From positions 1-22,607 of the IMG/VR virus record IMGVR_UViG_3300030107_002661: DNA of 22,607 nucleotides, one strand, 5' to 3'. The notes beneath the pieces are model-generated. The model was given only the letters and a program-made list of their open reading frames with translations. It did not search any database and was not told the origin of the DNA. The position numbers and the translations under genes are program-made. Within the stretch, counting starts at the first letter, position 1. Each line of letters starts with the position of its first letter. Below are positions 1 to 15,000 of this stretch, piece by piece. This stretch comes from a virus.

Positions 1-1
1 A

Positions 2-67
2 AGACGAGAACTACATAATATTGAGAAAGAGAATAAATTAGTGGAGGAATTGTGTAGTGACTTATAG
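2..67 (+). CDS. C-terminal end of a small unknown protein (partial)
   Basis: An open frame enters from the left edge and stops with TAG at 65-67, giving a 21-residue tail rich in Glu, Lys and Leu (ending EELCSDL). It overlaps the next GTG start by 11 bases, the same kind of overlap seen between other genes here (for example 3513-3523). That is the main reason to believe it is coding. Nothing can be said about function. It could also be a chance open frame. Confidence 0.4.
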   Translation, partial: RRELHNIEKENKLVEELCSDL

Positions 68-266
68 AGACTTACTGGAACATATTAAGTCCTTAACTGT
101 TAGAGATTTAGACACAGAAGTATGTGTTTATGATAACGAAAAAGGAAGAATACATCCAGCGAAAGATTTAGTGGTCGAAGATATTGACCCTAATTTTCCA
201 CCTCTGATATATCTTACACTCTTTGAGGATAAATTACAAGTGGTAGATGAGGTGACAAATGGTTAA
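57..266 (+). CDS. Small hypothetical protein, MTYxDLL family
   Basis: A 69-residue acidic protein of unknown function. The start is GTG at 57, chosen because a strong GGAGG ribosome site sits at 43-47 with 9 bases of spacing; no ATG is available. It begins MTYRDLLEHIKSL, continues with a VCVYDNEKG strand and ends with a hydrophobic PLIYLTLFEDK strand. The same plan (MTYxDLL, a Leu-rich helix, VxxYD, PYLxI) appears in the protein coded at 3067-3303, so the two look paralogous. It overlaps the preceding and following genes and probably shares their transcript. No signal peptide, membrane segment or catalytic motif is visible. Confidence 0.8.
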   Translation: MTYRDLLEHIKSLTVRDLDTEVCVYDNEKGRIHPAKDLVVEDIDPNFPPLIYLTLFEDKLQVVDEVTNG

Positions 267-411
267 ATTAGAGTTGGAAGATACAGAGGTTAAGTATATA
301 ATAGATGCTATACAGAAAGAAGCAAATAGTTATTCTTTCAGGACATATCGTTACCCTATTCTTAAACATTTAGTAACCAAATTGCAATTAGCACTATGCC
401 TTTCACAGTAG
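259..411 (+). CDS. Small hypothetical protein (50 aa)
   Basis: A 50-residue protein starting MVKLELEDTE and ending ALCLSQ. The start ATG overlaps the previous gene by 8 bases and has a GAGGTG ribosome site at 249-254, which supports translation. The first half is acidic and probably helical (VKYIIDAIQKEAN); the second is basic and hydrophobic. It has no recognisable domain. Its 3' end overlaps the next small gene by 16 bases, so the run from 57 to 566 is likely one early transcript ended by the terminator at 580-605. Confidence 0.65.
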   Translation: MVKLELEDTEVKYIIDAIQKEANSYSFRTYRYPILKHLVTKLQLALCLSQ

Positions 412-566
412 AAACTGACTATCATACGATAGATTTTACAGACAAGATTGCACATAAGTTAGTGTTAGAAAAGTGTGAAGAATTGGGTGTTAACATAGAT
501 TATTATTTCTTTGAATTTGATACTACAGACACAGAACCAGAAAACTATGATTGGGGTGCCAGTTAG
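396..566 (+). CDS. Small acidic hypothetical protein (56 aa)
   Basis: A 56-residue, strongly acidic protein (MPFTVETDYH ... DTEPENYDWGAS) with a Tyr/Phe-rich stretch DYYFFEFD. No function is recognised. The start overlaps the previous gene by 16 bases and has no clear ribosome site, so translation is probably coupled. Its TAG stop (564-566) lies inside the conserved promoter-upstream element at 556-578, so the coding end doubles as regulatory DNA. A strong terminator follows 13 bases later. Confidence 0.65.
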   Translation: MPFTVETDYHTIDFTDKIAHKLVLEKCEELGVNIDYYFFEFDTTDTEPENYDWGAS

Positions 567-613
567 CAAAGTGTCCACTAATCCCCCTATTTGGGGGATT
601 TTTTGTTTATAAT
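556..613 (+). promoter_or_regulatory. Promoter with upstream dyad-like element, copy 1
   Basis: The element GTGCCAGT-N3-CAAA occupies 556-578. Thirty bases from its first base lies CCTATT (586-591) at the -35 position, and 52 bases away is a consensus -10 TATAAT (608-613). The other copies (1481, 1748, 4112) keep the same spacing. The -35 is poor, which fits a promoter needing an activator at the upstream element. It would drive the genes from 642 onward. The promoter overlaps the terminator of the upstream transcript. Confidence 0.6.
580..605 (+). terminator. Intrinsic terminator
   Basis: A perfect 8-bp stem AATCCCCC (580-587) / GGGGGATT (593-600) with loop TATTT is followed by a T tract. 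It ends the run of small genes from 57 to 566 and lies partly inside the promoter for the next run. Confidence 0.9.
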
Positions 614-641
614 AAGAAGGTAAACAAATGAGGTTAACCTT

Positions 642-902
642 ATGAATCAAAAGACTTCAAAGATTATGCAAAGAATCTTACAAGTTGAAAACTTCCAGAA
701 CGTAGCATGTGTATGTGCTAACTGGCAAGAATTCACACAAGAATTAGAAGAATGGGGAGTATATGGGTGTGCTAAAATAGATTTTGATGATGAAGATCTT
801 GACGTTTCAGTATTAGATAAGTTCATCAGTTCTGAAAATGGATATATCAGAACTGGTGACGATTGGAACCTTATCTATAACTTAGGTGAGGTATTCGCAT
901 GA
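642..902 (+). CDS. Small acidic hypothetical protein (86 aa)
   Basis: An 86-residue protein of unknown function. The start ATG at 642 is favoured over the internal ATG at 666 because GAGG (630-633) lies 8 bases upstream. The N-terminal third is mixed-charge and helical. The centre is very acidic (KIDFDDEDLDVSVLDKF), followed by a Gly/Trp-containing strand region (GDDWNLIYNLGEVFA). It is first in a run of four overlapping or closely spaced genes (642-1484) behind the TATAAT promoter at 608. No known domain, membrane segment or catalytic signature is visible. Confidence 0.85.
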   Translation: MNQKTSKIMQRILQVENFQNVACVCANWQEFTQELEEWGVYGCAKIDFDDEDLDVSVLDKFISSENGYIRTGDDWNLIYNLGEVFA

Positions 903-1135
903 ATTCATTACAAGAATTTGTTGACTATGTTTGGTCATTCTATTCACCTAGTAGCGATCTTTATCCTATTAAAGGTTTAACTAAGTCAGACATCTTTGAT
1001 GCCTTTTATGTCTACAAACATAGACTATTACACACCCAAAATGATAACTTTACATGGGGTTACGGTGATAGTTTAGACAGAGAAAGAGTCAGAGATATTA
1101 TACTTGAAAGTCCACAATTCACCTTTGGAGGTTAA
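899..1135 (+). CDS. Small hypothetical protein (78 aa)
   Basis: A 78-residue protein rich in aromatic residues (VWSFYSPSSDLYP, FDAFYVYKHRLL, FTWGYGDS) with a C-terminal helix containing RERVRDIILES. The ATGA overlap with the previous stop indicates translational coupling, and GGTGAGG upstream can act as a ribosome site. Function is not recognised. Length and style match the many short conserved-unknown genes of cyanomyovirus accessory regions. Confidence 0.85.
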   Translation: MNSLQEFVDYVWSFYSPSSDLYPIKGLTKSDIFDAFYVYKHRLLHTQNDNFTWGYGDSLDRERVRDIILESPQFTFGG

Positions 1136-1140
1136 CACAA

Positions 1141-1356
1141 ATGTCACTACAATCAGACTACGAATTTGAACAGAATCATAGAAAGATTGACATCTATGAT
1201 TATCTAACTCCTGATGAATTAGATCAGGTTACTGATATTTTACTCGAAGCATTAGCAAGAGAAGAAGGTATCACACCAGACGTATTTGAGATTGAAACTA
1301 ACATTTTAGTTGAACCAGTTTACTTTCAAGATAATACTAAAGAGGTGAAAGTATGA
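1141..1356 (+). CDS. Small acidic hypothetical protein (71 aa)
   Basis: A 71-residue acidic protein, probably mainly helical, with a central segment LTPDELDQVTDILLEALAREEG and a hydrophobic C-terminal part ILVEPVYF. A GGAGG ribosome site at 1127-1131 overlaps the end of the previous gene. Its stop overlaps the next start (ATGA, 1353-1356), so it belongs to the same coupled run. No recognisable function. Confidence 0.85.
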   Translation: MSLQSDYEFEQNHRKIDIYDYLTPDELDQVTDILLEALAREEGITPDVFEIETNILVEPVYFQDNTKEVKV

Positions 1357-1484
1357 GGACAATTCATGTTACAAATGACGAACTATATGAGTTCACTAAG
1401 TTATACGATCTCTTAAGAGATATGGATATTGAACTAACACCTAATCAGGAAAGTGTGTTTGAAAAAGTATTAGAAATTGTGTGA
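1353..1484 (+). CDS. Small hypothetical protein (43 aa)
   Basis: A 43-residue protein, MRTIHVTNDELYEF ... VFEKVLEIV. GAGGTG sits just upstream of the ATG, and the start overlaps the previous stop by four bases, so it is likely translated despite its size. It looks like a short strand followed by helices, with no known motif. Its TGA stop (1482-1484) lies inside the 5' arm of the following hairpin, which is also promoter element copy 2, so the gene end, terminator and promoter element share bases. Confidence 0.7.
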   Translation: MRTIHVTNDELYEFTKLYDLLRDMDIELTPNQESVFEKVLEIV

Positions 1485-1511
1485 CGGTCTACAAACTGTC
1501 ACACATTTTTC
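1478..1511 (+). terminator. Intrinsic terminator overlapping a stop codon
   Basis: An 8-bp perfect stem TGTGTGAC (1478-1485) / GTCACACA (1498-1505) extends by a G-T, a G-C and a T-A pair, leaving a 6-base loop, then ATTTTT. It ends the 642-1484 run. The same bases contain promoter element copy 2. Confidence 0.85.
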
Positions 1512-1538
1512 CTATTTGGGGTAATCCTTCCCTATAAT
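1481..1538 (+). promoter_or_regulatory. Promoter with upstream dyad-like element, copy 2
   Basis: The element GTGACGGT-N3-CAAA occupies 1481-1503. CCTATTTGGGG (1511-1521) starts 30 bases from its first base and TATAAT (1533-1538) starts 52 bases away. This matches copy 1 base for base in spacing, including the identical 11-mer CCTATTTGGGG. It should drive the gene at 1569. Confidence 0.6.
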
Positions 1539-1568
1539 AAGGATATAAGAAACAAATGGATTTTTAAA

Positions 1569-1757
1569 ATGTCATCACTACATCACGAAGCACTATTAGA
1601 GACTTGCCACGATCAGGCATGGGAGGAATTCAGAATACATAACAAATTAACTGAAGATCAGTTAAACGAGTTATGCTGGATGAATCCTAACGGATCGGGA
1701 ACTCTATTAGCAATAGAAAGAACAGCACAGAAAATGTTCGAGGACTTGTGCCAGTAG
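1569..1757 (+). CDS. Small hypothetical protein (62 aa)
   Basis: A 62-residue, probably all-helical protein (MSSLHHEALLETCHDQAWEEF ... LLAIERTAQKMFEDLCQ). No good ribosome site is visible. A four-codon mini frame (ATG GAT TTT TAA, 1556-1567) ends one base before the ATG and might help load ribosomes or be incidental. It is a single-gene transcription unit, with promoter copy 2 before it and hairpin/promoter copy 4 after it; its TAG stop falls inside that element. Function unknown. Confidence 0.8.
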   Translation: MSSLHHEALLETCHDQAWEEFRIHNKLTEDQLNELCWMNPNGSGTLLAIERTAQKMFEDLCQ

Positions 1758-1786
1758 ACAAACAGGTACAAGGTCGCTTGATTTTT
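1745..1786 (+). terminator. Possible terminator hairpin overlapping a stop codon
   Basis: An 8-bp stem CTTGTGCC (1745-1752) / GGTACAAG (1765-1772) with one G-T pair surrounds a 12-base loop. The T tract (1782-1786) starts about nine bases after the stem, so termination is plausible but weaker than at 580 or 2193. The hairpin coincides with promoter element copy 4. Confidence 0.45.
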
Positions 1787-1806
1787 GCCCCGATCTGTGT
1801 TATATT
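1748..1806 (+). promoter_or_regulatory. Promoter with upstream dyad-like element, copy 4
   Basis: The element GTGCCAGT-N3-CAAA occupies 1748-1770. TTGATT (1778-1783) begins exactly 30 bases from its first base, and after a 17-bp spacer comes TATATT (1801-1806). This is a good sigma70-type promoter. It leaves a leader of about 55 bases before the ATG at 1868. Confidence 0.65.
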
Positions 1807-1867
1807 AAGTACATAATCAAGGAAGGGCAAATTTCTTCCACTAGCACAAACATTCAATTTCAAAATT

Positions 1868-2176
1868 ATGTCAAATTCTAAAACTCTTTTTTCACAATCT
1901 CTAAACCTATGTGATGATTACCTAGGTTTCGAGTGGACTCAGGGAGTCCGCACTTCTATTTTCGATTCTTACAGACGTGAGAACGATCTAGATCCAAATC
2001 TTTCAATCTACCACTACGGTGGAGACCGTTTTGAGGTTCGTTCTATGAACTATGATGACTCTAAGGGGTGCATTATAGGCACTCAGGTCGATCTCGGTTC
2101 TTTTGATAACATCTATGATGCACAAGATTGTGCAGAAGATTATCTGAAAGATCTTCTACTTGCTATCGGTGTTTAA
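1868..2176 (+). CDS. Hypothetical protein (102 aa)
   Basis: A 102-residue acidic protein of unknown function. The N-terminal part is helical (LFSQSLNLCDDYLGFEW). A strand-rich middle follows (LSIYHYGGDRFEVRSMNY, GCIIGTQVDLGSF), then a C-terminal helix (AQDCAEDYLKDLLLAIGV). No Shine-Dalgarno site is seen before the ATG. It has its own promoter (copy 4) and its own strong terminator at 2193, so it is a self-contained single-gene unit. Codon choice uses more C-ending codons (ttc, gac, atc) than its neighbours, which may point to a different recent origin. Confidence 0.85.
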   Translation: MSNSKTLFSQSLNLCDDYLGFEWTQGVRTSIFDSYRRENDLDPNLSIYHYGGDRFEVRSMNYDDSKGCIIGTQVDLGSFDNIYDAQDCAEDYLKDLLLAIGV

Positions 2177-2192
2177 CACATAGCAAGCATCA

Positions 2193-2218
2193 ATTGTGGA
2201 TCTCGCCACGATTTTTTT
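2193..2218 (+). terminator. Intrinsic terminator
   Basis: A 7-bp stem ATTGTGG / CCACGAT (one T-G pair) with loop ATCTCG is followed by seven T residues. It lies 16 bases after the stop of the 102-residue gene. Confidence 0.9.
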
Positions 2219-2237
2219 CACTAATTGTCCTTTAATT

Positions 2238-2372
2238 ATGTTCACTATGACCCCTGAAGTTTACGCACAATTAGTTAATCCAACTCCTGTAATTAAGTAT
2301 TACTTCTTATCTACATTCCCGAAGAATACTACAGGCAAAGTAACAACAATTCATTCAAAAAAAGGTTCTTAA
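2238..2372 (+). CDS. Small hypothetical protein (44 aa)
   Basis: A 44-residue protein, MFTMTPEVYAQLV ... IHSKKGS, with a basic C-terminal end. A second in-frame ATG at codon 4 is possible. No ribosome site is visible; the start is preceded by TTTAATT, a context also found before the starts at 2375 and 8296. The next gene begins two bases after its stop. Because a strong terminator ends only 20 bases upstream and no promoter is clear between, expression may depend on read-through. Function unknown. Confidence 0.6.
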   Translation: MFTMTPEVYAQLVNPTPVIKYYFLSTFPKNTTGKVTTIHSKKGS

Positions 2373-2374
2373 TT

Positions 2375-2635
2375 ATGCAACTTTCATCCAAAAAAGGTCA
2401 CATGGTATGTGATTATTATCCTGTAAAAACATGGGATAATGTACAACATCCCGACAAAGTTCTCAGGATCTTAACATTTATGGGACAAACTATGTCCAAA
2501 AGAATAATGTCAACTGAGAAGTATGTCAACGAAGTGTATGATAAAATTCATACATTTCAATACGTTGATAACAACGTAGATCACACAAATTGCCCACAAT
2601 TCGTATCATCTTTGGAGGAAACTTATCATGTCTAA
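2375..2635 (+). CDS. Small basic hypothetical protein (86 aa)
   Basis: An 86-residue protein (MQLSSKKGHMVCDYYPVKTW ... VSSLEETYHV) with a Met-rich middle (TFMGQTMSKRIMSTEKY). No domain is recognised. The start follows the previous stop by two bases. Its last 8 bases overlap the start of the next gene, and GGAGG inside its own end serves as that gene's ribosome site. It is part of the closely packed run 2238-3680. Confidence 0.8.
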   Translation: MQLSSKKGHMVCDYYPVKTWDNVQHPDKVLRILTFMGQTMSKRIMSTEKYVNEVYDKIHTFQYVDNNVDHTNCPQFVSSLEETYHV

Positions 2636-2828
2636 TGTATCACCAGAATTACTAAAAACAGCAAATGATGTTACTGACCTTATCGAAGATATGGTTGAAT
2701 ATTATTGCCGAGAAGAGCGAGTTTCAGGTGAGAGAGTATATACTATGATCGCAACATTATGTGCTATTAAGTTAAGTGAGTTCCCAGAATCTCGCTTTTA
2801 CGGTGATAACGAAGAGGAGGAAATATAA
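2628..2828 (+). CDS. Small acidic hypothetical protein (66 aa)
   Basis: A 66-residue, mostly helical protein (MSNVSPELLKTANDVTDLIEDMVEYYCREERV ... GDNEEEEI) with a very acidic C-terminal tail. GGAGG lies upstream within the preceding gene, and the start overlaps that gene by 8 bases. Its terminal bases (GAGGAGGAAATATAATG) provide the ribosome site and start of the next gene, indicating coupled translation. Function not recognised. Confidence 0.85.
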   Translation: MSNVSPELLKTANDVTDLIEDMVEYYCREERVSGERVYTMIATLCAIKLSEFPESRFYGDNEEEEI

Positions 2829-3055
2829 TGTATAAAAGTGAACATTTCGGAAGAATCTTCTGGGTTGATGATAACAACGATTTCAAATCATGCCCACAAA
2901 ATGTTGATGGGACGGGTGATTTTGATGTAGAAGATTATGTATCAGAGTGGACAGATTGGGAGGGAGTTAATTATGACTTACTCTTTAATATCCATCAGTC
3001 ATGTGTACTTAACAAGAATAATTACGCTGGTTCATTAACAATTAATGGAGTATAA
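2828..3055 (+). CDS. Small acidic hypothetical protein (75 aa)
   Basis: A 75-residue acidic protein (MYKSEHFGRIFWVDDNNDF ... YAGSLTINGV) rich in Asp, Asn and Trp (EDYVSEWTDWEGVNYD). TAATG overlap with the previous gene and a strong GAGGAGG site support the start. The Asp/Asn stretch DDNNDF resembles acidic loops, but no metal-binding motif can be claimed. Function unknown. Confidence 0.85.
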   Translation: MYKSEHFGRIFWVDDNNDFKSCPQNVDGTGDFDVEDYVSEWTDWEGVNYDLLFNIHQSCVLNKNNYAGSLTINGV

Positions 3056-3066
3056 TATGAGGTGAT

Positions 3067-3303
3067 ATGTCAACACATTTCCAGTTAATCCCTTGGACAA
3101 TCTTAACACATTACTACGACACATTACGTCACCAAAAGTTACAACGAACCCCTATGACTTACCTTGATTTATTAACTGAATTACAGAATCTTGATGAGGA
3201 TTCTTTACTCAAACCAGTTACAATTTATGATGAAGATGTAGAAGATTATTGCAAAGGTTACTCTTTTAATAGTAAAGAAGAAACCCCTTATTTGGTCATA
3301 TAA
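3067..3303 (+). CDS. Small hypothetical protein, MTYxDLL family, possibly extended
   Basis: A 78-residue reading frame whose second part (from the internal ATG at 3154) reads MTYLDLLTELQNL ... PVTIYDEDVED ... PYLVI. This matches the protein coded at 57-266, so the two are probably paralogs. The first 29 residues (MSTHFQLIPWTILTHYYDTL ...) have no counterpart there and may be a fused or read-in segment. GAGGTG at 3059-3064 is very close to the first ATG, and no ribosome site precedes the internal one, so the true start is uncertain. Confidence 0.7.
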   Translation: MSTHFQLIPWTILTHYYDTLRHQKLQRTPMTYLDLLTELQNLDEDSLLKPVTIYDEDVEDYCKGYSFNSKEETPYLVI

Positions 3304-3328
3304 GTAATAACGAACTTCACCTAATTAC

Positions 3329-3523
3329 ATGCAACAAAAGTTTATTAAAGGTGAGAAGATTACCTATCAAGATGATACTGGACATGTTAACTTTATAGGT
3401 GATAAGTATATAACTATGAGTCTTAATCGTAGGAAGGATAGTAATAGTATGCATGGATATAAGGAGACTAATTTATTAATTTACAGACAATATTGGGAGG
3501 GTATTATATACCATGACAGATAA
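3329..3523 (+). CDS. Small basic hypothetical protein (64 aa)
   Basis: A 64-residue, strand-rich protein with the pattern KGEKITYQDDTGHVNFIGDKYITMSL, suggesting a small beta-barrel (SH3- or OB-like), followed by a basic stretch (NRRKDSNSMHGYKETN). That would fit a nucleic-acid or protein-binding accessory factor, but this is inference from sequence style only. No ribosome site is obvious. It overlaps the next gene by 11 bases. Confidence 0.75.
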   Translation: MQQKFIKGEKITYQDDTGHVNFIGDKYITMSLNRRKDSNSMHGYKETNLLIYRQYWEGIIYHDR

Positions 3524-3680
3524 TAACAAAGAGGTAAGTGTTACTTCCGCAGAACAGATTAACTACGTTTGGATAACACTTAAGGAACTAACTTGTATCA
3601 TGTGGGAAACAATTAGAGAACGAAGATTATGGACAGTTTCTAACAACGTTGTGGAAAACTTTGATGATTATGTGGAATAA
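3513..3680 (+). CDS. Small hypothetical protein (55 aa)
   Basis: A 55-residue protein (MTDNNKEVSVTSAEQINYVW ... VVENFDDYVE), Trp-rich and probably helical. GGGAGGG lies upstream of the ATG with about 12 bases of spacing, and the start overlaps the previous gene by 11 bases. It is last in the 2238-3680 run. Its 3' half contains TGTGGAAAA and close variants, which resemble cyanobacterial DnaA boxes. Function unknown. Confidence 0.7.
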   Translation: MTDNNKEVSVTSAEQINYVWITLKELTCIMWETIRERRLWTVSNNVVENFDDYVE

Positions 3681-3800
3681 ATTAAATGGTAATATAAATG
3701 TATTAGTGTGTTTAATAGGTCTCTAATTAATCTCATATTTGTAACACTCTTAGCACGCAATCTACCGAAAGTCAAGTTATATCCAGGAATTCAGATTTAC

Positions 3801-3830
3801 TTGACAGATTATAAACAATTATGGTATAAT
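3801..3830 (+). promoter_or_regulatory. Consensus sigma70 promoter
   Basis: TTGACA (3801-3806) and TATAAT (3825-3830) are both perfect consensus hexamers with an 18-bp spacer, in a 217-base intergenic region (3681-3897) that contains no open frame. It should drive the gene at 3898. Unlike the other early promoters here, it lacks the GTG-M-C-R-GT element upstream. Confidence 0.85.
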
Positions 3831-3839
3831 TACCTTGTA

Positions 3840-3858
3840 AGAGGTTCAGAAACCCTCT
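3840..3858 (+). other. Hairpin in the 5' leader
   Basis: AGAGGTT (3840-3846) pairs with AACCCTCT (3851-3858) with one bulged C and a CAGA loop, just downstream of the expected start of transcription. It may stabilise the leader or influence translation. It has no T tract, so it is not a terminator. Confidence 0.45.
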
Positions 3859-3876
3859 ATAAACATTTCTGATAAG

Positions 3877-3898
3877 TTATCAACAACCCTGTGGAAAA
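3877..3898. promoter_or_regulatory. Pair of DnaA-box-like 9-mers
   Basis: TTATCAACA (3877-3885) differs by one base from the E. coli box. TGTGGAAAA (3890-3898) is the exact complement of TTTTCCACA, the box reported for cyanobacteria. The second overlaps the start codon of the next gene. Whether they bind anything is unknown. Confidence 0.3.
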
Positions 3899-4095
3899 TG
3901 CAGTATCTAATTGAAGATGAACACGGAAAACTTCATGGGACGTTTACATCAGTAACTGACCTTGAATTATACATGGACGGTGTTAGAAACTCTAGGGGAG
4001 ATAGGTATAAAGAATTGCCCAGATATTCATGCTTTGATTATATCAAATCGATTGGATGGTATCTAACAATTAAGGATGAACATTTACCCCCTTAA
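3898..4095 (+). CDS. Small hypothetical protein (65 aa)
   Basis: A 65-residue protein beginning MQYLIEDEHGKLHGTFTSVTDLELYMDG and ending IGWYLTIKDEHLPP, an alternation of short strands and a helix. It is transcribed from the consensus promoter at 3801-3830 as a single gene, with a leader of about 60 bases containing a hairpin. Only GTGGAA precedes the ATG, so the ribosome site is weak. Function not recognised. Confidence 0.8.
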   Translation: MQYLIEDEHGKLHGTFTSVTDLELYMDGVRNSRGDRYKELPRYSCFDYIKSIGWYLTIKDEHLPP

Positions 4096-4111
4096 GTATA
4101 AACAAATGGTT

Positions 4112-4170
4112 GTGACGGTCTACAAAGTGGCACACAGGGGGTTGTAACTTAGTCCAAATGATTGTATACT
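4112..4170 (+). promoter_or_regulatory. Promoter with upstream dyad-like element, copy 3
   Basis: The element GTGACGGT-N3-CAAA occupies 4112-4134; 16 bases (4111-4126) are identical to those at 1480-1495. TTGTAA (4142-4147) starts 30 bases from its first base, and a 17-bp spacer leads to TATACT (4165-4170). It drives the gene at 4202. Confidence 0.7.
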
Positions 4171-4201
4171 ATTAGTATAAATCAATCAAGGAATTAATTC
4201 C

Positions 4202-4432
4202 ATGAAACTAACACCTATCGCAGCAAATCAGAACGAAGTTTCTATTAACGACGGAACACAAATCTTCTTCAGTTATAGAACACCAGTTGCAGCATATTTG
4301 CCCGAAAAAGGTTATGTTAGAACATCTAAATTCTGGTCAGTAACTACATCTCGCCACATAAATAAGTGGTTGAAAAATGTTACAAACGTCCAAGAGATTG
4401 ACCAGTCAGTTCTTGACAATCTAGCAAACTAA
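4202..4432 (+). CDS. Small conserved-type phage protein (76 aa)
   Basis: A 76-residue basic protein. The N-terminal part is strand-rich (MKLTPIAANQNEVSINDGTQIFFSYRTPVAAYLP). A segment SKFWSVTTSRHINKWLKN follows, a pattern I recall from short proteins in many phages though I cannot name its function. The start is well supported: AAGGAA at 4188-4193 with 8-base spacing and a good promoter (copy 3) 30 bases further up. It has its own terminator at 4443, making it a self-contained cassette. Confidence 0.85.
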   Translation: MKLTPIAANQNEVSINDGTQIFFSYRTPVAAYLPEKGYVRTSKFWSVTTSRHINKWLKNVTNVQEIDQSVLDNLAN

Positions 4433-4442
4433 TTGTATAATG

Positions 4443-4469
4443 GGGGTAACACTTAGTTGCCCCTTTTTC
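4443..4469 (+). terminator. Intrinsic terminator
   Basis: An 8-bp stem GGGGTAAC (4443-4450) / GTTGCCCC (4456-4463) with one T-G pair and loop ACTTA is followed by TTTTT. It ends the early-type region. Confidence 0.9.
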
Positions 4470-4505
4470 ATGCCTATGTAACACACAAGACAGTTAATTG
4501 ATCTA

Positions 4506-4512
4506 CTAAATA
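4506..4512 (+). promoter_or_regulatory. Late promoter motif CTAAATA, first copy
   Basis: CTAAATA, within CTAAATATAAAG, resembles the T4 late promoter (TATAAATA) and the CTAAATA form I recall for cyanomyoviruses. It lies in non-coding DNA between the last early terminator and the first gene of the structural run. Confidence 0.5.
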
Positions 4513-4515
4513 TAA

Positions 4516-4590
4516 AGAACTCGCCCCAAAAGGCAGTCATAGCGGGGGTTCTGGATATAAAACCGGCCACTACCCTAACCTACAAAGGTT
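4516..4590 (+). other. Untranslated stretch with two small hairpins
   Basis: AGAAC (4516-4520) and CCCC (4524-4527) can pair with GGGG and GTTCT (4544-4552). AACCT (4577-4581) pairs with AGGTT (4586-4590) around an ACAA loop. No open frame or tRNA fold was found between 4470 and 4645. The structures would lie in the leader of a transcript started at the first CTAAATA. Their role is unknown. Confidence 0.3.
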
Positions 4591-4602
4591 CCCAAACGCC
4601 AT

Positions 4603-4609
4603 CTAAATA
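4603..4609 (+). promoter_or_regulatory. Late promoter motif CTAAATA, second copy
   Basis: CTAAATATAAA is repeated 97 bases after the first copy, 36 bases before the ATG at 4646. This is the expected place for a late promoter serving the structural gene run. Confidence 0.55.
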
Positions 4610-4645
4610 TAAAATATTTCAAAAATTTTTCCAAGGTAAAAAAAC

Positions 4646-4864
4646 ATGACACCAGAATTTCGCCAAGACTACCAAGATAATCGTACATGGTGCTTAGAGC
4701 AGATGATAGTGAAAGAAAGGTGGTTAGACCCTAGAATGTATGAGTGTGCTGACTATTGTGTAAGTGAAGGTATTATAAATGATGTTAAAGATGTCCTTAA
4801 GGCATGGGAGAGTTGGCAAAAAACTCATCCACTAAAAGAAGGAGTATCTACAAATCGTTTATGA
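4646..4864 (+). CDS. Small hypothetical protein (72 aa)
   Basis: A 72-residue, helical protein with many Trp and charged residues (FRQDYQDNRTWCLEQMIVKERWLDPRMYECADYCVSEG ... WESWQKTHPLKEG). AAGG about 10 bases upstream serves as ribosome site. It is the first gene after the two late promoter motifs and so probably the first of the late run. It has three Cys residues but no clear metal motif. Function unknown. Confidence 0.8.
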   Translation: MTPEFRQDYQDNRTWCLEQMIVKERWLDPRMYECADYCVSEGIINDVKDVLKAWESWQKTHPLKEGVSTNRL

Positions 4865-4871
4865 ACAAAAC

Positions 4872-5033
4872 ATGTCACACAGATTTACCGTTTCCCTAGA
4901 GGAAAATGAATTCGGGGATACCGTAATTACCCTTCCAGTAGAATTAACCGATGAGCTATTGTGGAATATCGGAGACCAACTAGACTATGATATAAAAGAT
5001 GACACTCTTTCCTTCAAAAAATATGACGAATAG
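4872..5033 (+). CDS. Small AbrB/MazE-like protein (53 aa)
   Basis: A 53-residue acidic protein: MSHRFTVSLEENEFGD, then TVITLPVELTDELLWNIGDQLDYDI, then KDDTLSFKKYDE. The order 'LPxEL - Leu-rich turn - GDxLxY - DxxLxFKK' is the usual pattern of swapped-hairpin AbrB/MazE-type DNA-binding domains (residues about 18-50). I infer such a fold, possibly a small DNA-binding regulator or antitoxin-like protein; no toxin partner is seen beside it. It starts seven bases after the previous stop, without a clear ribosome site, and overlaps the next gene by 11 bases. Confidence 0.7.
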   Translation: MSHRFTVSLEENEFGDTVITLPVELTDELLWNIGDQLDYDIKDDTLSFKKYDE

Positions 5034-5334
5034 CGAATACTCTTTTGAGCAAGACTATAACGAAGCTATGGATACTATTAATAGTTGTCTTATCAGCATC
5101 GGTAAGCGTCTAGAAGACCTCGAAAAACATGTACAAGAGATTCCTACCCCTGACAAGACGTATTATAAACCAAAGGGATATAAGGACTACCTTGACATGA
5201 GACAGAATTATGATGAGTTATATAAAAGAATAACCAAGTTGGAAGAGATGGCACACCCTAAACCAACAGGTGCTACTCAAAAACGCAACGAAGATCGGTT
5301 AAATAGATTAGAGGAATTAGTTAATAATAAGTAA
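5023..5334 (+). CDS. Coiled-coil protein (103 aa)
   Basis: A 103-residue charged protein with a probable N-terminal coiled coil (residues about 8-40, INSCLISIGKRLEDLEKHV), a Pro/Lys/Tyr linker (TPDKTYYKPKGYKDYLD) and a second coil (YDELYKRITKLEEM ... RLNRLEELVNNK). I chose the ATG at 5023 because it gives the 11-base overlap typical here; an in-frame ATG at 4999 would add eight residues. Neither has a ribosome site. Its stop overlaps the next start (TAATG). Its place directly before structural genes suggests a small virion or assembly protein. Confidence 0.8.
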   Translation: MTNSEYSFEQDYNEAMDTINSCLISIGKRLEDLEKHVQEIPTPDKTYYKPKGYKDYLDMRQNYDELYKRITKLEEMAHPKPTGATQKRNEDRLNRLEELVNNK

Positions 5335-8295: not shown

Positions 8296-8442
8296 ATGGC
8301 AAAATCAGTAAATTGGAACTCTGGCGAGAGTAAAATGGAGGCAAAACCTAAAAAAACACGTCAAGGTATGTCGATGCGTACTAAATTTGCATCTTCTTCA
8401 CGAAATGGTGCTAAAAAACGGTATAGAGGTCAAGGAAGGTAA
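8296..8442 (+). CDS. Very basic small protein (48 aa)
   Basis: A 48-residue protein (MAKSVNWNSGESK ... KKRYRGQGR) with many Lys and Arg residues and few acidic ones, probably unstructured. It begins two bases after the PAAR stop and ends in a TAATG overlap with the heme oxygenase start, so all three are likely translated together. Such a charge pattern suits binding to nucleic acid, or an acidic protein or membrane surface, but no family is recognised. GGAAGG in its last codons serves as the ribosome site of the next gene. Confidence 0.75.
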   Translation: MAKSVNWNSGESKMEAKPKKTRQGMSMRTKFASSSRNGAKKRYRGQGR

Positions 8443-9125
8443 TGGGATTAGCGTTAGATCTTAAGCAAGGGACTAAAAAGTCCCATTCTGCTGCGGAAAA
8501 TACCAAATTTGTTGCTGGATTCCTTAGAGGTGTACTAGATCCAGAGCAATATCGCCAATTATTGACTAATTTCTATTATGTCTACGACACAATGGAGCAA
8601 AGGATTCGAGAATCTACGGATCCTTTAGTTAATATGATACATTATCCCGAATTGGAGCGTGTTAATGCTCTTGAAAGGGATCTTAGGTACTATTATGGTC
8701 CTAATTGGAGGGCATTACAGACACCTACTGAAGCATGTAATACATATTGCTATAGAATTAACGAAATTGCTAATGATAATCCGTATTTGCTTATAGCACA
8801 TCACTATACACGGTATATTGGTGATCTATCAGGTGGACAAATATTGAAAGGTATTGCGGAGAACGCATTAAATCCTCCAAAAGGCGAAGGATTGTATTTT
8901 TATGAATTTGATAAGATTGCCGATGCGAAAGAATTTAAAACTGGATATCGTGCAACATTAGATTCTCTTGATATTGATGAATCTCAAGTAAACGCTTTAA
9001 TCGCAGAAGCAAATTATGCTTTTAGGTTAAATATGTACATTTTTGATGAATTGCAAGGAGATGCATCAAAATCACTTTTTAAAGTCCTTTTTGGACTAAT
9101 TAAATCCAAATTATTTAAATCATGA
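8442..9125 (+). CDS. ho1: Heme oxygenase
   Basis: A 227-residue biliverdin-forming heme oxygenase. It opens heme to biliverdin IX-alpha, iron and CO using reduced ferredoxin, the first step of phycobilin synthesis. His15 in KKSHSAAEN matches the proximal heme ligand. HHYTRYIGDLSGGQ (120-133) is the distal helix signature with its flexible Gly residues. Length and the helical C-terminal region (NYAFRLNMYIFDELQ) fit cyanobacterial HO1, and cyanophage homologs are known. The start overlaps the previous stop (TAATG) with GGAAGG just before it; the end overlaps the next gene (ATGA). It is embedded in structural genes, which suggests late expression. No pebS or pcyA is in the window. Confidence 0.97.
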   Translation: MGLALDLKQGTKKSHSAAENTKFVAGFLRGVLDPEQYRQLLTNFYYVYDTMEQRIRESTDPLVNMIHYPELERVNALERDLRYYYGPNWRALQTPTEACNTYCYRINEIANDNPYLLIAHHYTRYIGDLSGGQILKGIAENALNPPKGEGLYFYEFDKIADAKEFKTGYRATLDSLDIDESQVNALIAEANYAFRLNMYIFDELQGDASKSLFKVLFGLIKSKLFKS

Positions 9126-9309: not shown

Positions 9310-9594
9310 GTGACTTATAGGGCATTACCCGAAGGATTGTTTATTAAAGACAGTCCTATCGCTGGTCAAGGAGTTTTTACTAAAAAACCTCTTGGAATTG
9401 GAACTGAATTGGGTCTTTCTCATATTATTAATGGGAAAGATATGTATAGGACACCTTTAGGTGGATTCATTAATCATAGTGAATATCCTAATTGTGAAAA
9501 ATACAGAGATAACATGAAATATTATATAAAGGTTATTAGACCAATCGACCCTATGGAAGAACTGTTTTTGAAATACACCTTCTATAAAGTTTAA
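9310..9594 (+). CDS. SET-domain protein (probable lysine methyltransferase, 94 aa)
   Basis: A 94-residue minimal SET domain. GQGVF (19-23) fits the first SET motif, FINHSEYPNC (53-62) is the 'NHSxxPNC' cofactor-binding and pseudoknot motif, and EELFLKYTFY (83-92) matches the 'GEELxxDY' end with its catalytic Tyr. SET proteins transfer methyl from S-adenosylmethionine to lysine. No pre-SET, post-SET or substrate-binding region is present, so the target is unknown. The start is GTG at 9310 because no in-frame ATG exists upstream of the domain; no ribosome site is visible. The stop overlaps the gp25 start (TAATG), so it is coupled to baseplate genes and a virion protein is a possible substrate. 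Confidence 0.88.
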   Translation: MTYRALPEGLFIKDSPIAGQGVFTKKPLGIGTELGLSHIINGKDMYRTPLGGFINHSEYPNCEKYRDNMKYYIKVIRPIDPMEELFLKYTFYKV

Positions 9595-10013: not shown

Positions 10014-12038
10014 ATGCAACCGAATAATTTAACCGCATTAGATTTTGATGATATCAAATCTTCTATTAAATCATATCTAAGAACTCGATCAGAGTTTACC
10101 GATTATGATTTTGAGGGATCTGGTTTATCATATTTAATTGATACTTTAGCGTATAATAGTTATTATACCGCATTTAATGCTAATATGGCGTTAAATGAGG
10201 CATTTTTGCCGTCATCTACGGTTAGAGACAACGTTGTTAATATTGCAAAGCTCTTAAATTACGTTCCTCGATCAATTCTTGCTTCTAAGGGATGTTTAAA
10301 GTTAGAATTGCAGACAACACAGACAAATGGTGCATATCCAAGTAGTGTTACTTTACAAAAAGGTGCTGTAGCTACAGGTGGTAATTATGTTTGGAATATT
10401 TTAACAGATAGGACTGTAGAAGTCAATACAACTACAGGAGTTGCTATATTTGACAATTTATTGGTGCAGGAAGGATCTATAGTTAATTTCCAGTATATTG
10501 TTAATACATTTACAAATCAGACTTACAAAATTCCTTCTGAAGATGCTGATTTATCTACTTTATCCGTAAAGGTAAAAGCGAACGAATCTGCGACTGCTTC
10601 TGACCTCTACAACCAAGTAGATACTGTTACCAACCTAACTGCTACCACAAGGGTTTACTTCCTTGCTGAGGGCGAGGATATGAGGTATGAGATAAGATTT
10701 GGAGATGATAGTGTTGGTAGATCAGTTAAAGATGGTGAGGTTATTGTTCTTGAGTATTTGGTTACTTCTGGTGCTGAGGCAAATGAAGTAAATAAGTTTG
10801 CATTTATTGGTAAATTTACTGATAATTTGGGTATTAGTTATACTAGTGCTGATTCTATATTAACAACAAAAGAAAGGTCTCAATTAGGTTCTGATGCAGA
10901 AACTATTGAATCTATTAAGTATAATGCTCCTAGATACTATTCTTCCCAATATAGAGCAGTTACTGCACAAGATTATGCTGTAATTACTAAAAAAGTTTAT
11001 GCTAATGCAGAATCTGTAGTTGCATACGGTGGAGATTCTCTTAATCCTCCTATCTACGGTAAAGTTTATATTGCAATTAAAACTAAGACAGGTTCTCTTC
11101 TAAACGATCAAACTAAGAAGGAAGTTGCTGCAGATTTAAGAACATATGCTATGGCATCTATCGAACCTGTAGTTATTGACCCAGATCAGGTCTATATCTA
11201 TAGTAAGATTTTTGCTTTATATGATACTGGATGTGGATCTAGTACATCTCAAATTAAAACCGATATTTCGTCTTCTATTACATCTTGGGCGGAACAAACT
11301 CAAATTAATAATTTCAATTCTACATTTAGAAGTCAGAGTTTTGAAAAAGCAATTACACTTTCTAATAAGTGTATTAGTGACGTTTCTCTTCAAACAACTA
11401 TTCTAAAATATATTAATCCAGCAGTTAATCAGACCAATACCTATTGTGTATCTACTGGTGGTGCTCTTTATAATAGTGCTCCAAGTAATGCAGGTGGTGC
11501 TTGTAAGAAAGAACCTATTCTATTATCTGGAACTTTCAGAACACTTGATAGACCAGGTATTGATCAGCAATTTGAAGATGATGGATTTGGTAATTTAAGG
11601 ACTTTCTATAATACTGGTAATAAAAAAGTATATACAAATGACAAAGCTGGTACAGTAAATTATGATACTGGTGAGGTTTGTTTTGGTCCAGTTAATATTA
11701 TTGGTGCAGGTGATGATGTTCCTTCATCTACCAATTTAACTATTACTGATGCGGTTACTGGGGTAGGTACGGTTATTGATCCTTCTTTATTACCTAGTAC
11801 TTTACAAATTCCAGTTTTATTCATTCCATCAAATAATTCGACTATTCCTGCTTCAACTCCAGGTACAATTATTAATATTGTTAATCCAGAGGTTACGGTA
11901 TCGCCAATTGGCACAGTACCACCTGGTACTATCCCTCTAAATAGTCTTACGCCAAACGTCTTCAATCAGACACCAACTCTAATTGAAGTACCAACAATCA
12001 CCAACGCTGGCACAGTTAACACTTCGACTTGCTTCTAA
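10014..12038 (+). CDS. 6: Baseplate wedge protein gp6
   Basis: A 674-residue homolog of T4 gp6 (about 660 residues), which forms the inner ring of the baseplate. The N-terminal segment (ALDFDDIKSSIKSYLRTRSEFTDYDFEGSGLSYLIDTLAYNSYY, then NVVNIAKLLNYVPRS) is the typical gp6 helical start. The central part (ARYYFLAEG-type strands, KYNAPRYYSSQYRAVTAQDYAVITKKVYANAESVVAYGGD) belongs to the baseplate J fold. After VNYDTGEVCFGP the last 110 residues or so are Pro/Thr/Asn-rich, probably a flexible tail absent from the core family. It starts directly after the gp25 stop and is followed seven bases later by the giant gene. Confidence 0.95.
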   Translation: MQPNNLTALDFDDIKSSIKSYLRTRSEFTDYDFEGSGLSYLIDTLAYNSYYTAFNANMALNEAFLPSSTVRDNVVNIAKLLNYVPRSILASKGCLKLELQTTQTNGAYPSSVTLQKGAVATGGNYVWNILTDRTVEVNTTTGVAIFDNLLVQEGSIVNFQYIVNTFTNQTYKIPSEDADLSTLSVKVKANESATASDLYNQVDTVTNLTATTRVYFLAEGEDMRYEIRFGDDSVGRSVKDGEVIVLEYLVTSGAEANEVNKFAFIGKFTDNLGISYTSADSILTTKERSQLGSDAETIESIKYNAPRYYSSQYRAVTAQDYAVITKKVYANAESVVAYGGDSLNPPIYGKVYIAIKTKTGSLLNDQTKKEVAADLRTYAMASIEPVVIDPDQVYIYSKIFALYDTGCGSSTSQIKTDISSSITSWAEQTQINNFNSTFRSQSFEKAITLSNKCISDVSLQTTILKYINPAVNQTNTYCVSTGGALYNSAPSNAGGACKKEPILLSGTFRTLDRPGIDQQFEDDGFGNLRTFYNTGNKKVYTNDKAGTVNYDTGEVCFGPVNIIGAGDDVPSSTNLTITDAVTGVGTVIDPSLLPSTLQIPVLFIPSNNSTIPASTPGTIINIVNPEVTVSPIGTVPPGTIPLNSLTPNVFNQTPTLIEVPTITNAGTVNTSTCF

Positions 12039-12045
12039 AAGTTAG

Positions 12046-15000
12046 ATGTATAATATCAACAAGGTTTCACAGGCGGTTTCTTCCCAAACCCCTGATTTTA
12101 TAGGGTCTGAGTATCCTTTATTCAATAAATTTATTGAATATTACTATAGATCTCAGGAAAAGCAAGGTTTAGGGCAGAATATTGTTAATAATTTCCTTCA
12201 ATATCTAGATATTGATAAACTAGATATTGGAATACTTGATGGTGCCTCAAAAGTTGTAGAAGCAGTTAGTGTTACTGATGATAAGATTGTTGTAGAGTCT
12301 GTTGATGATTTTTTAACTGAGAATGGTAGTATTCTTATTGGTGATGAAGTAATTTACTATGAAAAGACAACTGCTGCTCCTAGTATTGCGTTAAGTCCAG
12401 GTATTTCATATGAGCAGGTAAAATTAAAGTGGACTGGTCTTGCTAGTCCTATAAACTCTTTTGATGGTAGCACAGTAAGGTTTGGACTTACATCACAAGA
12501 GAATCCTATTGCTCCTGTATCGGCACAACACCTAATTGTTAGTGTATATGGCGAATTGCAGGTTCCTAATATTGATTATACTGTAGATGGGACAAATATT
12601 GTATTTACAACTGCTCCTAGAACAAAAATACCTGCTGATAATGCTTCTGAGACATATATTACATTTTTAAGCGGTTTTATTGAAAATACTATTGTTGGTA
12701 TCGATAATCTATCCAATTCCTTTGGAGATGGTAAAAGACAATTTTCTATTACTAGAAATGGTGCAGGATATGAACCAATTGTTGATGAATATGTAATTGC
12801 AGTTTATGATAATCGTCTTCTTACTCCAAAAGTTGATTTTTGGATTGATGGAACCAATTTTATATTTAGAGATGCTCCATTAAACGGTAGATTCTTATCA
12901 CTATATGCTATTGAGGCACCTGTTCCTTCTTTTGGTTCTGGTGCTATTGGATATGCTCGTGTTAGTGATACAGGTAGTTTAACTGGAATTAATACCAGTA
13001 CAACGGGTTCTAATTATAGATTTGAATATCCACCTAAAGTTTCTATTAGTTCTACAGAAGGTTCTGGTGGTGCTGCAACTGCTTTGGTTAATGGTCTTAA
13101 ATCTGTTTCTCTACTAGATGGTGGTAAAGGTTATAGTTCCACAAACCCACCAGTTGTTCAAGTAGAATCTCCAACAAAGGCAGGATCTAGTCAGGCAACT
13201 CTTACAGCTACAGTTGCTGATGGTTCTGTAACTGGTCTAGAAATCACTAATTCTGGTAGTGGATATACATTCACACCTAGACTTACTTTTAGGCAACCTG
13301 GAGGTGCTATACTAGGCACTCCAACCGTTACTAATGGTCAGATTACTGGTACAATACCTATTACGGAACAGGGATTTGGATACACTACTATTCCAGAAGT
13401 TTATATTGATGAACCTACTGGTGCTAATGGAATTAAGGCAGCATTACGAGCAACGATAACAGAAGGTCAAGTTACTGGCATTACTATTGCTAATGCAGGA
13501 CAAGGATACGAAGTTACACCAAGAATTGCTATTATAGACCCTGTTGGTGCTCAAATTTTAGAAACAAAGGTTGACGGAGATGGACGTGTAATTAATATTG
13601 AACTTTTAAGTGGTGGAAGTGGATATGATGATGTTCCTTCTGTTTATATTGTTGATGAAAGAGTAAATGACCAAGGAACCTATATTGGTGGTAGCGGAGC
13701 ATTAGCATCAGCATCAATTTTCAACGGTAGGATTATTGATATTAATATCAGTAATTTTGGAACTGGATATAGTGCAGCCAACCCTCCAAAAGTTGTTATT
13801 CAAGATCCTCCTTCAGCAAAAGCATCTGCTGAGATTGGTTTAAATGAAATTACTGGATTTACAGTAAATCAAGCAGGTATTGGATATAGTAAAGCACAAT
13901 TTGAAGGATGTGCTAGAGCAGCAAGTGGTATTACTTCATATACTGAAGATGGTAATGCAGTATTTTCAAATGACACTACTGCAGCAGCTGCAATCGTAAA
14001 TACTCCAGTTAAATGTCTAGATTCTCTTTTTGTTAAGAGATTGCTTGATAAGTACACAGAACAGTTTTTACCAGATGTTCCTGAATTAGATTATAGTAAA
14101 ATTGATGTTCGTACTTCAATTAAGACAATTAAGGATTTTTACTCTTCTAAGGGTACATCTTTTAGTATTGCTTACTTGTTTAAACTTCTATATGGAGAAA
14201 CTGTAAGTATTTCATATCCAAAAGACCAAATCATCAAACCTTCTGATGCTACTTGGTCTATTGACACTATTCTTCGAGCAACTATAGTTAGTGGTGATCC
14301 AACTAATATCAAAGATGCTTTATTAGTACAAGAAGCAGATGTTGCAGATCCTAACGTTGCTGCAGCAAGTGCTTTAGTAGAAAATTATATTTCAATCAAA
14401 ACTTCTGAAGTTGAGATCTTTGAACTTATTCTTTCAGAAGAAACTATTAATGGAACGTTTACCGTACCTTATAAGACAAATCTTGCAGAACCTTTAAATA
14501 CAACCGACTCAATTATTACGGTTGACTCTACAATTGGTTGGCCAGAAAGGAACGGTGAGTTTATTATAGGTAATAGCGAAGTTGTTCAATATAAAGAGAA
14601 ATCACTAAACCAGTTTATTGAGTGTACACGTTCTTTCAATAATGTTGTTGAAGATTGGGATGCTGCTACTGAAGTAAAATCAAACTTTAAAGTTTACCTT
14701 AATAAAGGTACATTACAAGAAGTTGTAATGAATATTGTTGGTATTGTTGATGCTCAACAGACAACATTAACAGATACTGGTTCTTATTACCTTCCTGGTG
14801 ATAAATTAACAGTTTCTAAACTTGGTGGTACTGGTATTGGACCAGAATTGACAACTTGGTTGTATAATGTTAAAAAATTAATTCAAGTTTCTACTGTAAC
14901 GTTTGGTGGTGTTAATAACCAATCTGCTACTATTACTTGTGCTAATCCTCACGGTCTGTTGGTGGGAGATCAGGTTACCATCTATGGTGCTAACCCAATC

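Follow-up and report, generated by a model that had tools for sequence, protein, structure and literature searches.

The DNA described here, hereafter the window, is the first 22.6 kb (22,607 nucleotides) of the 42,754-bp IMG/VR virus record IMGVR_UViG_3300030107_002661, a T4-like cyanophage with near matches among Synechococcus and Prochlorococcus myoviruses such as Syn33 and S-RIM12. Positions 1-5300 of the window hold many small open reading frames (ORFs) directly upstream of the PAAR, heme oxygenase, gp25 and gp6 genes, and Syn33 carries a small-ORF region of like kind at the equivalent position. The subject of this study is a promoter-associated element in this region, first noticed by an inspection of the sequence alone (the original prediction) as the motif GTGMCRGTNNNCAAA. 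It has exactly the four matches claimed, at 556, 1481, 1748 and 4112, all on the plus strand, compared with a mean of 0.03 in 100 dinucleotide shuffles of the window, none of which reached four; no further exact match occurs elsewhere in the whole record. The -35 position claimed at +30 and the -10 claimed at +52 or +53, counted from the first base of the element, are borne out in all four copies; four correct -10s out of four are not due to chance, as a -10-like hexamer (one mismatch or fewer) stands at the required offset for only ~2.7% of early-region positions. The consensus promoter at 3801-3830, said to lack the element, indeed has none upstream of it.

The 15-mer of the original prediction is real, but it is only the left part of a 24-bp dyad, TGTGmCAsTt-N4-aAsTGkCACA, with half-sites TGTGmCAsT and AsTGkCACA whose centres lie 14 bp apart (promoter-proximal half-site motif: ACTGGCACA). 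What had been read as a terminal 'CAAA' belongs largely to the spacer, its remainder being the first A of the second half-site, which ends A[C/G]TG[G/T]CACA. The geometry of this dyad is fixed across viral contigs. Scanning these for GTGCCAGT-N4..8-ACTGNCAC, with no promoter term, gave 169 matches, of which 140 have a spacer of exactly 6, and along 196 oriented dyads TATAAT (one mismatch or fewer) peaked at +52 (25) and +53 (24) over a background of 2.7, with TTGAC peaking at +30 (44 vs 2.9). When only GTGCCAGT was fixed and TATAAT was accepted anywhere from +45 to +61, the hexamer peaked at +51 to +53 (10, 21 and 11) and the second half-site was found mainly at those offsets. A further scan, this time for the asymmetric form CAGT-N6-AGTG, returned 142 dyads, with a -10 at +51 to +54 for 60 of them in forward and 27 in reverse orientation; equal offsets in both orientations of an asymmetric dyad are as expected of a two-fold symmetric dimer site. 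A correctly offset -10 stands on one or both sides of 226 of the 363 distinct dyads in virus contigs; at control offsets the count is 24. Twenty-seven of the 363 have one on both sides (for example L044:4754 and L058:10206), which suggests divergent promoters using one common site.

The logo of 240 such promoters reads tGTGmCAsTt-n4-aAsTGkCACA, n7, weak TTgAaa, n16-17, cTATAATa, and ends with an A at the predicted +1 and a T at +2, the transcription start being placed 12 bases beyond the position where the -10 begins. Strong conservation is confined to the dyad, the -10 and the A and T at the predicted start; the -35 is weak, with at most 0.36 bit per position, and the intervening sequences are unconserved. 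The element spans approximately -65 to -42 from the predicted start with its centre near -53.5, very close to the -64 to -42 originally proposed, and this placement is fixed over contigs and isolate genomes alike. With a TATAAT-like -10 at +52/53 and a TTGACA-like -35 at +30, spaced 16-18 bp apart, over hundreds of sites, the promoters have sigma-70 (SigA-type) features, the window exceptions being the poor -35 hexamers of copies 1 and 2.

Isolate genomes were scanned with a matrix trained only on IMG/VR sites, dyads being called without a promoter term. The dyad is present in 12 of the 13 cyanomyovirus genomes examined (S-CRM01, 23 places; S-SSM7, 20; P-SSM2, 15; S-PM2, 14; P-HM2, 11; Syn19, 11; S-H25, 9; Syn9, 7; S-RSM4, 7; P-SSM4, 6; Syn33, 6; and the window record, 3, where an extra base puts copy 1 below the cut), while reversed-sequence controls gave 0-4 dyads. 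The same matrix found none in S-SM2, T4, RB49, most of KVP40, podovirus Syn5 or siphovirus PSS2, and two in Ma-LMM01, neither with a promoter. A scan of related cyanophages for the element joined to a -10 at +52/53 had been proposed with the original prediction, and here the offsets proved fixed rather than random: along 242 oriented dyads in the isolate genomes the -10 fell at +52 in 51 cases and at +53 in 19 (background 1.8 per offset), and the -35 (TTGAC) at +30 in 27 vs 3.4. Of the contig loci with dyad and promoter, 138 of 142 encode ORFs whose best matches, within the test set, are cyanomyoviruses. The site is thus conserved family-wide and is common to viruses of ocean and freshwater cyanobacteria. 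S-SM2 (NC_015279) retains one decayed copy at 112239, in the usual place ahead of the peptidase gene, as if the sites of a whole regulon had been lost; a replacement motif was looked for in this genome and none was found.

The 113 promoter-oriented sites in the genomes lie mostly within the hypervariable small-ORF region, and orthologous genes retain the element across divergent phages. It precedes the peptidase gene T4-GC 146 in six genomes, with a weaker match in S-H25 besides the decayed copy in S-SM2; T4-GC 71 in six genomes, including P-SSM2 and Syn33, where the gene with its element is placed differently in the genome; cobS, which heads the gp45-gp44-gp62-regA (clamp/clamp-loader/regA) cluster, in five; gp32 in three; and a helicase gene with three strong and three weak matches. 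Because the element also precedes gp32, the cobS-led cluster, helicase and peptidase, 'prereplicative (early and/or middle)' would be a safer label for the putatively regulated genes than 'early'. The start codon mostly follows 79-91 bp past the element, leaving a short leader, and in the window the corresponding distances to the next ORF are 86, 88, 120 and 90 bp for copies 1-4. The ORFs after copies 1, 2 and 4 have relatives in other phages that are likewise downstream of dyads, among them those of phrog_5643 in P-HM2, P-SSM2 and P-SSM4. In P-HM2 the element stands ahead of PHM2_053, PHM2_068, PHM2_135 and PHM2_136. A second conserved promoter class, at Syn33 160910, S-RSM4 10823 (-) and P-SSM4 168592, has no dyad and combines near-perfect TTGACA and TATAAT with a common downstream sequence.

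Table 1. Dyads, promoters and associated features in the small-ORF region of the window.
Feature	Position	Strand	Sequence	Remarks
Dyad copy 1	556..578	+	GTGCCAGT-TAGCAA-AGTGTCCAC	Score 23.4; extra base in promoter-proximal half; overlaps TAG stop of ORF 396-566
Terminator-like hairpin, copy 1	580..604	+	AATCCCCC-TATTT-GGGGGATT + T-run (TTTT)	Between dyad 1 and its -10
Promoter 1, -35 position	586-591	+	CCTATT	Mostly inside hairpin loop
Promoter 1, -10	608..613	+	TATAAT	At +52; predicted start ~620; next ORF 642-902 (phrog_9580)
Dyad copy 2	1480..1503	+	T-GTGACGGT-CTACAA-ACTGTCAC-A	Score 36.1; overlaps TGA stop of ORF 1353-1484
Promoter 2	1511..1538	+	-35 position CCTATT (1511-1516); -10 TATAAT (1533-1538)	-10 at +52; next ORF 1569-1757
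Dyad copy 3	1747..1770	+	T-GTGCCAGT-AGACAA-ACAGGTAC-A	Score 30.5; proximal half weaker; overlaps TAG stop of ORF 1569-1757
Promoter 3	1778..1806	+	-35 TTGATT (1778-1783); -10 TATATT (1801-1806)	-10 at +53; next ORF 1868-2176
Dyad copy 4	4111..4134	+	T-GTGACGGT-CTACAA-AGTGGCAC-A	Score 34.3; shortly past ORF 3898-4095
Promoter 4	4142..4170	+	-35 TTGTAA (4142-4147); -10 TATACT (4165-4170)	-10 at +53; next ORF 4202-4432 (phrog_5643)
Comparison promoter	3801..3830	+	TTGACA-N18-TATAAT	Consensus hexamers; no dyad

The CCTATT of copy 1 is at the position first assigned to it, but falls within an intrinsic terminator's loop, so that it either serves two signals or is no real -35. Elsewhere in the window, a heme oxygenase gene (8442-9125; PF01126, E 2.5e-69) is a host-derived metabolic gene within the baseplate cluster, a small SET-domain ORF (9310-9594; PF00856, E 2.3e-9) stands between it and the baseplate gene gp25, and a short run of N apparently occurs near the window end (~22607), within a very long tail ORF beginning at 12046 (XXXX in frame).

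According to a review, cyanomyoviruses are without alt, modA/B, motA and asiA, host polymerase in unmodified form is believed to transcribe their early genes, and how early and middle transcription works in them is unclear (PMC2984593). The -35/-10 hexamers of the dyad promoters are of host type, like those of the host-like sigma-70 early promoters of S-PM2 and Syn9. T4 middle promoters, read through the MotA box by sigma-70-AsiA, resemble them in that an element specific to the phage precedes a sigma-70 -10 and marks prereplicative genes, and both kinds of promoter involve gp32 and the clamp/clamp-loader/regA genes. Unlike the MotA box, which lies at about -30 and replaces the -35, the dyad lies at -65 to -42 and the -35 position is kept; a MotA-dependent middle promoter is ruled out by this position and by the centre near -53.5. 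The original prediction had also allowed for a binding site of the RNA polymerase alpha subunit, which as such is not supported: an UP element for the alpha-CTD is an A/T-tract at -40 to -60, whereas the dyad is a conserved, sequence-specific and G/C-containing site. The comparative study of 2010 searched only for sigma-70, T4 late, Pho and NtcA motifs (Sullivan 2010; PMC3037559), and the accessible literature does not mention the dyad; an earlier description is possible and its novelty is provisional.

We consider it somewhat probable that the dyad is the site of a dimeric, sequence-specific DNA-binding protein acting on a widespread class of T4-like cyanophage promoters, and the shared factor of the original prediction is a reasonable inference. 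A dimer would occupy the half-sites at about -65 to -42, immediately upstream of a mostly weak -35, and would most likely recruit the host sigma-70-type RNA polymerase, with the hypervariable small-gene region and several replication-related operons being turned on before late transcription. The upstream position and the weak -35 argue for activation, and by analogy the element would work like an activator box. The activator is probably phage-encoded, since the site is confined to cyanomyoviruses, is missing from podovirus Syn5, whose host strain WH8109 is also that of Syn19, and occurs as a perfect 24-mer in no cyanobacterial genome (84,980 species scanned, host genomes being scanned only for the perfect 24-mer; five scattered matches elsewhere). 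A scan of plasmids gave no matches. At a subset of sites the terminator of the upstream gene may be merged into the module with the -35 in its loop, and each gene block would then have its own stop and start. The pattern suggests that a single protein, probably viral, activates a large group of genes ahead of the structural ones. More specifically, we tentatively posit a dedicated phage-encoded dimeric activator, unrelated to MotA/AsiA, that would control cyanomyovirus prereplicative genes from a two-half-site operator centred at -53.5.

Several observations weigh against this proposal. No ORF family matches the pattern of dyad presence and absence, and the binder was not found. The computed results do not separate an activator from a repressor; nor could the -35 be shown to be weaker in dyad promoters than in other candidate promoters, since contamination of the comparison set left no usable difference. 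A dyad centre near -53.5 coincides with none of the classical class I/II positions at which activators such as CRP bind, S-SM2 does without the element, and the argument from host genomes is limited by the perfect 24-mer being present in only 1 of the 12 dyad-bearing phage genomes. Candidates for the binder obtained by comparison with the dyad-less S-SM2 were oxygenases, hli proteins and similar, with no convincing DNA-binding protein among them. The window ORF 4872-5033, a 53-aa AbrB/MazE-like protein (phrog_661) syntenic with Syn33_085, was rejected, being missing from the dyad-bearing S-SSM7, P-HM2 and S-CRM01, as was the 'DNA binding protein' T4-GC 147, which is missing from S-H25, Syn9, Syn19 and S-PM2.

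The dyad could instead be a repressor operator through which a phage or host protein shuts the promoters later or keeps them low. The same sequence facts are compatible with this, and the good -10 of many dyad promoters may make them active unaided; we nevertheless regard it as unlikely, as the site never overlaps the -35, the -10 or the start, a position of -65 to -42 generally favours activators over repressors, and the -35 is weak on average. Rather improbable, in our judgement, is a host cyanobacterial regulator exploited by the phages, as has been proposed for the NtcA sites reported in cyanophages (PMC3037559). Prereplicative genes need transcription before much phage protein exists, which would suit such a regulator, but the lack of the perfect 24-mer in the cyanobacterial genomes scanned speaks against it, as does the absence of sites from Syn5 and PSS2, a podovirus and a siphovirus that infect the same host groups. 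The consensus, moreover, is neither a Pho box nor that of NtcA (GTA-N8-TAC), and an NtcA site is ruled out because TGTGmCAsT-N6-AsTGkCACA is without the GTA/TAC arms.

There is little likelihood that the dyad acts as RNA, that is, as the stem-loop or terminator of a mobile cassette of the PeSL type with a spacing fixed by whole-cassette copying. PeSLs (promoter early stem-loops) are reportedly composite terminator/promoter cassettes of T4-type phages, and those cyanophage modules that include a terminator are like them in being compact terminator-promoter units set among the small genes of hyperplastic regions. In the window, three of the four dyads overlap the stop codon of the preceding ORF, and a terminator hairpin with T-run lies between dyad and -10, its loop on the -35, at 33 of 386 sites (~9%; shuffles 5.1 +/- 2.0), including copy 1 (580-604). 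Another such hairpin, the S-PM2 stem-loop 11369-11391 discussed as a possible PeSL (PMC4503421), directly adjoins the dyad at 11348. Where found, however, the true terminator is a separate hairpin; most copies are without one, the dyad is a distinct, non-covarying DNA site upstream of any terminator, and its motif is absent from RB49, the PeSL model phage. In 85 spacer-6 sites from whole genomes, scored per position so that covariation gained no advantage, the variable positions 3/18, 6/15 and 8/13 were paired in 40, 29 and 43 sites, where independence predicts 40.9, 37.4 and 42.7; many copies have mismatched halves (e.g. GTGCCAGT/AGTGGCAC). Nor is the dyad followed by a T-run (T fraction 0-0.31 at +22 to +29). 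Conservation is 7.65 of 8 in the promoter-proximal and 6.94 of 8 in the distal half. In most genomes the position of the element shows no increase in generic palindromicity, so sequence rather than pairing is conserved. Whole-cassette copying does not explain the spacing, because the sequences between dyad, -35 and -10 are unconserved. The absent covariation and T-run rule out the dyad itself as an RNA stem-loop or intrinsic terminator and point to a DNA site for a dimer, its two half-sites probably read in double-stranded DNA; in the terminator-bearing subset the module as a whole may work like a PeSL. Chance resemblance among AT-rich promoters has nothing in its favour except the small number of copies in the window, and the scans of whole genomes and contigs render it negligible.

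T4-like cyanophages abound in the ocean, and a family-wide operator offers a sequence handle on their unclear early and middle transcription. The dyad predicts regulon membership, transcript starts and bait DNA for the regulator, and it marks prereplicative operons in uncultured phage contigs. If a dedicated phage activator does read it, this would answer how cyanomyoviruses run early and middle transcription without MotA, through a family-wide regulon extending from the hypervariable small-gene region through the replication operons.

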